From positions 1 through 33,454 of the forward strand of contig JALTGP010000102.1 in NCBI GenBank assembly GCA_027076905.1: 33,454 bases of DNA, read 5' to 3'. This DNA comes from Campylobacteraceae bacterium (GTDB lineage: Bacteria; Campylobacterota; Campylobacteria; Campylobacterales; Sulfurovaceae). The notes under the pieces are model-generated. The model saw nothing but the letters and a program-made list of their open reading frames with translations. It ran no database searches and was not told the DNA's origin. Positions 31,100-33,411 of this stretch are shown here, in pieces. The position numbers were made by a program, and so were the translations under genes. The stretch's first letter is position 1; every line of letters starts with the position of its first letter.

Positions 31100-31621
31100 C
31101 TATTTTTCAACCAGTTTTCGTATCTCTTTCTCTTCTGTCCAAACGATGGCAGAACTCTTGATATTGGTGAGTATTAATGTTAATGCATAGAAGTTATCAA
31201 TGGTACTAGTTGTATTTTTTTTGATAGAATGTACATCGCCTCTAAGCTCATAATCTTTGGTAATAACTTTGGTTTTATCCAAATATCTACTGTCTAAAAA
31301 ATTAACTTTGCTAGATTTAATAAGATTTGTTCGGATACTGTTTTTAATTAGTACCGTATCGATATGCTCATCTACTCCTACGCCTATTTTAATATCTCCC
31401 AATGCCAAATAGGGTTTAGGCTTTTTGTTTAGAACAGGGCTTTGCAACATGGAATCTACCATTTTTTCTACAAAAATATGTAAATCCTCAGAGCCATAAT
31501 TGGCATCGGTATCTTGTATTTTTCTTGGGTCAACGCGTACTACTTTACCACTATTTGATGAGGCACACCCCATTATTAGGGTAGCTAGTGTGATATAGGT
31601 TATAAGTTTTTTTAGTTTCAT
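31100..31621 (-). CDS. LpoB-like lipoprotein (penicillin-binding protein activator family)
   Basis: Lipobox-like IMGC; LALGDIKIGVGVDEHIDTVLIKNSIRTNLIKSSKVNFLD typical of the LpoB/CsgG-like fold. Confidence 0.75.
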   Translation of the reverse strand: MKLKKLITYITLATLIMGCASSNSGKVVRVDPRKIQDTDANYGSEDLHIFVEKMVDSMLQSPVLNKKPKPYLALGDIKIGVGVDEHIDTVLIKNSIRTNLIKSSKVNFLDSRYLDKTKVITKDYELRGDVHSIKKNTTSTIDNFYALTLILTNIKSSAIVWTEEKEIRKLVEK

Positions 31622-31629
31622 ATAAGCTC

Positions 31630-32814
31630 CTACTTAAAATATATTTTACAACTAACAGCTTTTGGATTAAAAGCAGATTTTTTTACTCTACTGTTATCAC
31701 TCGCTTCAAGGAATAGTGGTTTCCATATGGCCATATTATTGCTTACCTCCATGCCACTATCATCAAACCATCGGTAGCGATACTGTAGGGTTATCTCTTT
31801 ATTGGTATTGTTTCGAACATCAATAATGGTTTCGAGTAGCTCATTGTTTACCCTACTTGATAGACTCTCTACAGTTATTTTCTCTTTTAGATGGGGAGTG
31901 ATAATAAATTTGCTAGAGGAGGTTGAGACAATATTCTGATGGGTTGGCACTTGGTAAGCAGTTGCTGTAGTAGAGGCTGTTGCTTTGCTTGTTGCTTCAT
32001 CGGGAAGTGTAAAGAAAAATTTTCCATTAATGGTCTGATTGTAGATAGCAGGAAACTGTTTTTGATGAGATTCTTGATAGACCTCTTCTCTACTTTTTTG
32101 AAATACCTCTTGCAGGTCAAGGGGCTGTTTCATGTGCTTAATAAGTGATTTGGTAAAGAGACCATTTTCACCTACTTTTCCATCACTAGCAACTTTTCCT
32201 GCTCCTGTGGCATAGGAGACAAAAAGTCCAATGGGTTCTGCTTTTGCCAGTCCCCCTACACCAATGGCTTTGGTAAAGGGGTCATTTCTACAGGCATCAA
32301 GTACCACGATATTGAGACGATTTCCTGCATTTTGCATTCTTTTGGTAATTTTATTTAATGCAATAGCTTCAAACTCGGTATCACTTTTTGCTTTGATATT
32401 GGCATCTACAGGAATTAGATAGTTTTGTCCATCCACCTCTAGTCCATGTCCTGAAAAATAGAGCATCCCTACACCACCTTTGGATATCTTGCTATAGAAT
32501 TTACCCAAGCTGTCTCTTAACGATTTTTTACTTACGTCCTCTCTGTAGATAACATTAAAGCCTCTACTGCTCAATATATCTCTAATCGATTTGGCATCAT
32601 TGACAGGGTTACTTAATTTTGACATTACCCCTTGGTAGTTATTGTTCCCAATAACCAGTGCTACCCGTTGCTCTTGTGACATGGAGGTGGTGTTTATCTT
32701 AACGGCTCTACTATTATCAGTAGTGGTTATTTCCACTTTGCTATCTGTTGAAGCACAACCTGTATAAAGCAATATACTGCTTAGAACTACAAGTCTTTTT
32801 AGTTTTAATATCAT
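31630..32814 (-). CDS. Caspase-family (peptidase C14) lipoprotein with C-terminal YcfL/DUF1425-like domain
   Basis: RVALVIGNNNYQ, YFSGHGLEVDGQNYLIPVDA (His), IVVLDACRNDPF (Cys); C-terminus ITLQYRYRWFDDSGMEVSNNMAIWKPLFLEASDNSRVKKSAFNPKAVSCKIYF; N-terminal signal with TGC. Confidence 0.85.
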   Translation of the reverse strand: MILKLKRLVVLSSILLYTGCASTDSKVEITTTDNSRAVKINTTSMSQEQRVALVIGNNNYQGVMSKLSNPVNDAKSIRDILSSRGFNVIYREDVSKKSLRDSLGKFYSKISKGGVGMLYFSGHGLEVDGQNYLIPVDANIKAKSDTEFEAIALNKITKRMQNAGNRLNIVVLDACRNDPFTKAIGVGGLAKAEPIGLFVSYATGAGKVASDGKVGENGLFTKSLIKHMKQPLDLQEVFQKSREEVYQESHQKQFPAIYNQTINGKFFFTLPDEATSKATASTTATAYQVPTHQNIVSTSSSKFIITPHLKEKITVESLSSRVNNELLETIIDVRNNTNKEITLQYRYRWFDDSGMEVSNNMAIWKPLFLEASDNSRVKKSAFNPKAVSCKIYFK

Positions 32815-32853: not shown

Positions 32854-33411
32854 TTATTCATTATACCATGTTGGAATAGTCTCCAATGCTGTAGCTTCAT
32901 TAAACATACCATTAGTATCTGTAATATTCCCCTCTACATTTACATTCCAACGCTCCAAATCTTGATTGAATGAGATGGCTTTATAGAACATCCCGTCCAT
33001 AACTTGTACATTTGAGACGTTCCAACTACTAATATCTTGATTAAAGGCACTATCATTTGCAAACATATTGCTCATATTTATGACACCTGAGACATTCCAC
33101 TTGCTGATATCTTGGTTAAATGCACCCATTGCTCCAAATATACAGAGCATATTATTAACATTCTTTACATTCCAATTGCTTATATTTTGATTAAAGTTAC
33201 TTGCTCCTAAGAACATATATTCCATATTTTCAACCTTGGATAAATCGGGAACATCTCGTGCATTTCCTACAAGATTTGCACATCCTGCAAAAGCTCCTGC
33301 CATAGATGTCCATTCAATCTCACCCCATTTTGGTGATGAGGTCTCTGTATCACTTTGAGCATTTAAACCAATTGACATAATAGGTATTAATAAGAGATTA
33401 TATTTTAACAT
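32854..33411 (-). CDS. BspA-like/DUF285 repeat surface protein
   Basis: Signal peptide and repeated MxxMFxxAxxFNQDISxWNVSNV units of ~25 aa. Confidence 0.85.
   Translation of the reverse strand: MLKYNLLLIPIMSIGLNAQSDTETSSPKWGEIEWTSMAGAFAGCANLVGNARDVPDLSKVENMEYMFLGASNFNQNISNWNVKNVNNMLCIFGAMGAFNQDISKWNVSGVINMSNMFANDSAFNQDISSWNVSNVQVMDGMFYKAISFNQDLERWNVNVEGNITDTNGMFNEATALETIPTWYNE

Follow-up and report, generated by a model that had tools for sequence, protein, structure and literature searches.

What does a caspase-fold protease do when it is joined to a DUF1425 (YcfL-like) domain and encoded beside an LpoB-like lipoprotein? This question is raised by a gene on contig JALTGP010000102.1 (C102) of a Campylobacteraceae genome (GCA_027076905.1; GTDB family Sulfurovaceae); the window is the whole stretch of 33,454 nt from this contig that was analysed. 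The source genome (G000) comprises 2.37 Mb in 318 contigs with a completeness of 84.7%, and its one DUF1425 gene and one LpoB gene both lie in the cassette described below. There is almost no functional literature on DUF1425/YcfL, which a single paper of the open-access literature searched mentions by name, though the domain travels with LpoB across several phyla. The natural fusion with a caspase and a DUF1425-LpoB fusion in another genus offer handles on its role.

The fusion of a caspase domain to a YcfL-like domain, proposed in an initial annotation of the window, is real (Table 1). Both domains score above the curated Pfam cut-offs: Peptidase_C14 (PF00656) reaches 133.1 bits against a cut-off of 21.4 (E 1.6e-38), and DUF1425 (PF07233), the match on which the proposal depended, reaches 69.8 bits against 28.3 (E 1.9e-19). 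In addition, the DUF1425 family profile matches the structures 4gio (Cj0090) at 1e-24 and 3o0l at 9e-17. The AF2 model contains a well-formed caspase core and DUF1425 domain, with pLDDT mostly above 85-90; the loops after Cys175 are loose and of low confidence, and the linker has a disordered stretch. The His/Cys dyad is intact, as had been annotated, and together with the putative S1 Asp it is invariant in 14 sequences (five fused proteins and nine close paralogs). Asp73 and Asp173 align with Asp residues of MALT1. The role of an acidic residue in the S1 pocket is established for caspases and paracaspases, and the fusion caspase is predicted from its sequence to cut after Arg or Lys.

Table 1. 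Features of the caspase-DUF1425 fusion gene and the adjacent LpoB gene, in window positions.
Feature	Position	Strand	Basis or remark
Caspase-DUF1425 fusion CDS, predicted to be exported, 394 aa	31630..32814	-	Orthologues in G513, G540, G531, G536
Export signal, residues 1-20; possible lipobox LYTGC, Cys20	32755..32814	-	Sequence reading; lipobox varies among orthologues
Caspase (Peptidase_C14) domain, residues 50-267	32014..32667	-	Pfam; Foldseek and phmmer, MALT1 paracaspase nearest solved relative
Asp73, second candidate acidic S1-pocket residue	32596..32598	-	Aligns with MALT1 Asp
Catalytic His123 codon	32446..32448	-	YFSGHG; invariant in alignment
Asp173, candidate acidic S1-pocket residue (basic P1 expected)	32296..32298	-	MALT1 alignment and established knowledge
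Catalytic Cys175 codon	32290..32292	-	LDACRND; invariant in alignment
Interdomain linker, residues 268-305, variable among relatives; middle part of low model confidence	31900..32013	-	
DUF1425 (YcfL/Cj0090-like) Ig-like beta-sandwich, residues 306-392	31639..31899	-	Pfam, model, family profile
DUF1425 hallmark Y345-x3-W349-x-D351	31762..31782	-	No variation among 14 aligned members
Gene for an LpoB-domain lipoprotein, Cj0091-like, 173 aa; downstream of fusion at 8 nt	31100..31621	-	Pfam, family profile
LpoB signal peptide, lipobox LIMGC, Cys19 (alignment-invariant)	31565..31621	-	

The families involved are already known, and what is new is their combined architecture. MALT1 paracaspase (caspase-Ig3) is the best match of the fusion in both sequence and fold, and in both proteins the caspase domain is followed by an Ig-like beta-sandwich; the likeness is one of domain order and not of placement, since the full-length superposition has an rmsd of about 22 A. 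Unlike MALT1, the fusion has no death domain and no N-terminal Ig. Membership of the MALT1-type paracaspases was rejected, because there is no Ig Pfam match and the sole beta-sandwich is the C-terminal DUF1425. Membership of the CHAT/HetF proteases was also ruled out, the CHAT model scoring 25.3 bits on the protein, far under Peptidase_C14. With bacterial orthocaspases, such as those of Microcystis, the fusion shares the C14 His-Cys dyad, a putative acidic S1 residue and varied C-terminal domains (PMC5756287), but it differs from them in its predicted export and in being joined to DUF1425 inside an LpoB cassette.

The lipoprotein signal read in the initial annotation stood in part. Export to the envelope is predicted for all five fusions known so far (see below) by reading of their N-termini, which agrees with the envelope location that had been assigned. 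Lipidation is uncertain, as the lipoboxes are inconsistent: that of the window protein (L-Y-T-G-C) has a Tyr at -3 and is off consensus, the corresponding regions read I-S-A-C in G531, F-I-G-C in G540 and I-S-I-C in G536, and the G513 orthologue carries a plain Sec-type signal (...LFAQA-DD).

The next gene, separated by the 8-nt gap that had been noted, indeed encodes an LpoB domain (PF13036, 64.2 bits against a cut-off of 22.3, E 1.6e-17), and the LpoB family profile matches E. coli LpoB (2mii) at 1.6e-30. The parallel drawn with E. coli is also correct: there ycfL (b1104) precedes lpoB (b1105) by 13 nt, so that a DUF1425 gene again stands directly before LpoB. The E. coli pair differs from the present locus in lacking a caspase, in its long LpoB linker and in its UB2H-bearing PBP1B. 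UB2H is the domain of PBP1B on which LpoB docks. No UB2H was found above threshold in eight genomes, including the 84.7% complete source genome; one sub-threshold half-domain match, in a 681-aa frame of G249, is probably UvrB-like. In addition, the window LpoB misses the cut-off of the NCBI LpoB equivalog TIGR02722 (69.4 against 110.55 bits), and its lipid-anchor linker is about 23 residues long, whereas that of E. coli LpoB has 55. PBP1B-type activation, to which the annotation had linked the fusion, is therefore unlikely, and the known LpoB-PBP1B contact cannot be assumed. Class A PBPs are present, and the relative G512 has a class A PBP gene immediately upstream of its unfused cassette. A peptidoglycan link of the cassette is thus plausible, not of the E. 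coli PBP1B kind, and a PBP partner is still possible.

The full fusion occurs in five of the 34 genomes of the genus (G000, G513, G540, G531 and G536, the G536 locus being on the same contig as JALXFN, L011). Seven genomes of the genus have DUF1425, and in five of these it is fused. A family-wide search of 175 genomes placed all five fusion genomes in the window's genus. In each of them the fusion gene is followed by LpoB, 8-13 nt away and on the same strand, so the adjacency, whose absence from relatives would have told against the annotation, is retained. Four of the five have a second LpoB gene in tandem. The fusion orthologues share 51-61% pairwise identity (94% for G531/G536), and the same order in five genomes, mostly at 51-61% identity, rules out chance adjacency or an assembly artefact. 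No fusion was found outside the genus among 397 phylum genomes, judged by open-frame length, nor elsewhere in the family. DUF1425 itself is present in 73 of the 397, and the window's copy alone lies in a frame of sufficient length for a caspase. In a second phylum (338 genomes), the inspected long-frame DUF1425 matches, among the matches listed, contained no caspase; in a plasmid collection all caspase matches were below 60% identity and none spanned 80% of the query. A contig scan with a single fusion protein returned two loci only, because such a scan reaches close relatives only. So far, then, the caspase-DUF1425 architecture is confined to one genus. As to its surroundings, in three fused genomes the genes for a histidine kinase and a response regulator converge towards the second LpoB gene (L073:1942-4055, L074:2302-4169, L075:7145-9273), and a similar kinase gene lies beside the unfused G512 cassette (L086). 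Directly upstream of the fusion in the window is a gene for a DUF285/PARCEL-repeat secreted protein (32854-33411, minus strand), and in L011 the region upstream of the fusion likewise holds a DUF285 gene, at a distance of about 4.4 kb. A promoter scan gave fewer sites than in shuffles.

The association of DUF1425 with LpoB is far wider than the fusion. DUF1425 adjoins LpoB in 28 of 29 phylum loci, and among 30 loci inspected in a batch around the Kiritimatiellae relative, all 28 DUF1425 loci adjoin LpoB, in reversed order in two; the batch also holds two G512 LpoB loci without DUF1425. G512 has three LpoB-domain genes, and one G512 gene (L159:851-2443) fuses the LpoB domain to Sel1 repeats. 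A TPR lipoprotein gene of a single family adjoins DUF1425 in most of the inspected cassette loci. Within the genus, this gene is found in seven of seven genomes with the module and in none of three without it; it is adjacent to the fused cassette, or at most about 7 kb away, in G513, G540 and G536, and on another contig in the source genome. G531 carries the fused cassette plus a separate unfused one. The widely conserved unit is thus a triad of TPR lipoprotein, DUF1425 and LpoB, with the caspase added to the DUF1425 member. In G249, DUF1425 and LpoB form one polypeptide (L087:8176-9042), suggesting that both domains work together; beside it the genome has a further DUF1425-LpoB-LpoB set. An AF2 model of this natural fusion contains two good domains with no confident packing (pTM 0.53), which leaves DUF1425-LpoB docking without structural support. 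The same triad constitutes the Cj0089-Cj0090-Cj0091 lipoprotein operon of Campylobacter jejuni (PMC3100323), which differs in having no caspase and in its DUF1425 protein being a separate small lipoprotein. A partial equivalent is HP0018/HP1457 of Helicobacter, wherein HP0018 resembles Cj0089 and HP1457 resembles Cj0091 (PMC11394524).

This arrangement points to a protease that works at the cell wall. Since the caspase is fused to the DUF1425 member, it probably shares a transcript with LpoB, and both proteins probably occupy the same place in the periplasm. We infer that the protease would be active with the predicted specificity, docked through DUF1425, and directed at a substrate whose cleavage affects peptidoglycan. 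In this genus a paralogous exported caspase would have become fused to the DUF1425 member, and the product would be a cysteine protease of caspase fold that is exported and has a predicted preference for Arg or Lys, with its C-terminal DUF1425 serving as a docking subunit that tethers it to an envelope complex of TPR lipoprotein, DUF1425 and LpoB. Its target there would be either a regulator in the envelope or one of the complex members. A candidate site is the Arg/Lys-containing segment just after the lipid anchor of LpoB, a segment that is also found in unfused LpoB, and cleavage would alter the action of LpoB on a class A PBP or a cell-wall hydrolase. The triad seems to span the envelope in the phylum, as Cj0089 is recovered in the inner-membrane fraction and Cj0091 in that of the outer membrane (PMC3100323). 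Mutants of HP0018 show hypervesiculation and less helical cells, and HP0018 co-immunoprecipitates with the wall enzymes AmiA and MltD (PMC11394524). A precedent for such a protease is HetF of Anabaena, a caspase-fold protease of the divisome that is likewise tied to peptidoglycan synthesis. Located at septal peptidoglycan, HetF has FtsI as a binding partner (PMC8406250) and PatU3 as a cleavage substrate (reviewed in PMC12288457). HetF differs from the fusion in belonging to the CHAT branch, in its TPR and TM architecture and in lacking LpoB and DUF1425. The envelope and wall literature on the triad, together with this precedent, leads us to favour local proteolytic control of peptidoglycan growth by a DUF1425-docked, exported Arg/Lys-specific caspase in an LpoB envelope complex, to which we give a probability of roughly 0.45; the report of Cj0091 as an adherence factor, not as a PBP activator (PMC3100323), counts against it. 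Rather doubtful is the further proposition that proteolysis at the outer membrane by a periplasmic caspase, held in the LpoB complex via DUF1425, sets where or when the wall grows and has no part in death. In the open-access literature we found no description of a caspase-DUF1425 fusion or of a caspase in an LpoB cassette, and on a caspase together with LpoB only the work on HetF was relevant. If the caspase acts on the complex in the periplasm, it would join HetF as a second caspase-fold protease that controls the synthesis of peptidoglycan. This time the control would be exerted from the side of the outer membrane and would have no death role, the caspase being an extracytoplasmic switch of cell-wall synthesis instead of an agent of death.

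Phylogenetic analyses bear on whether the caspase and LpoB are partners or mere neighbours. The five fused DUF1425 domains form one clade (support 90/97), and so do the five fusion-adjacent LpoBs (96/87), whose sister is the LpoB of the unfused G531 cassette. The caspase-linked first LpoBs (window 31100-31621, L072-L075) have 7-13 residues where unfused first LpoBs have 26-35, and this loss of a segment of about 20 residues may have happened once, on the branch they share. The LpoB clade, the common loss and the adjacency in five of five genomes point to a functional unit. The caspase halves do not group together (AU p 0.0015 for a broad set, 0.018 for a close set) and intermix with paralogs having Lcl_C or Pro-rich C-termini. 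Either the caspase half was swapped by recombination between paralogs, or more than one fusion event occurred; the caspase may therefore be an exchangeable head and not a partner that is closely tuned to the rest. The source genome has seven caspase genes (L003-L007), including two tandem pairs, some with Lcl_C or DUF4384 C-termini, and close caspase paralogs occur without LpoB in other genomes. The closest paralogs without DUF1425 (L002:250-1685, L076:2950-4281, L077:4272-5613) adjoin a conserved small lipoprotein containing TPKTAGLDS[AS]YL.

These results leave some room for a general envelope protease, in which DUF1425 merely tethers or positions a periplasmic caspase, the substrates are unrelated (misfolded or surface proteins, or envelope-stress signalling), and LpoB adjoins only because DUF1425 brought its operon. 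Such a protease would fit the variety of C-terminal domains borne by the genus paralogs (Lcl_C, DUF4384, Pro-rich), the generic look of a head apparently exchanged between paralogs, and the histidine kinase and response regulator that flank the cassette in three fused genomes. However, the constant company of fused DUF1425 and LpoB, and the single clade and common segment loss of those LpoBs, argue against it, and we regard it as somewhat unlikely.

An adhesion or surface role, which has been proposed for C. jejuni Cj0091, is improbable. Here the cassette would serve to assemble a structure at the surface or in the outer membrane, with the caspase processing a surface protein, for example the product of the upstream DUF285 repeat gene. 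Adherence is reduced in Cj0091 mutants (PMC3100323), genes of the DUF285/PARCEL type lie upstream in both the window and L011, and LpoB-like folds also resemble the outer-membrane proteins CsgG and PelC. However, envelope defects can reduce adherence, surface exposure of Cj0091 was not shown in that study, and the surface genes near the cassette differ between relatives.

Bacterial caspases occur in defence systems. The protein matches the PADLOC caspase model (9.5e-13), which would suit a death or phage-defence module in which envelope damage or infection sets off the caspase as a suicide effector. The death module considered in the initial annotation finds no backing in the neighbourhood, however: export is predicted, the neighbours are housekeeping or envelope genes, PADLOC run on three genes gave the generic caspase model only, and beside the fusion neither a pore-former nor a sensor ATPase nor any other defence gene was seen. 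It is accordingly very improbable. Least credible is a caspase domain that serves as a structural scaffold and is inactive as a protease in vivo, for although the loops after Cys175 are modelled at low confidence, the His, Cys and putative S1 Asp are invariant in the 14 aligned sequences and under purifying selection. Both fusion domains are under purifying selection, with dN/dS of about 0.1-0.2; in the G531/G536 pair the caspase part has a value of 0.12 and DUF1425 one of 0.17.
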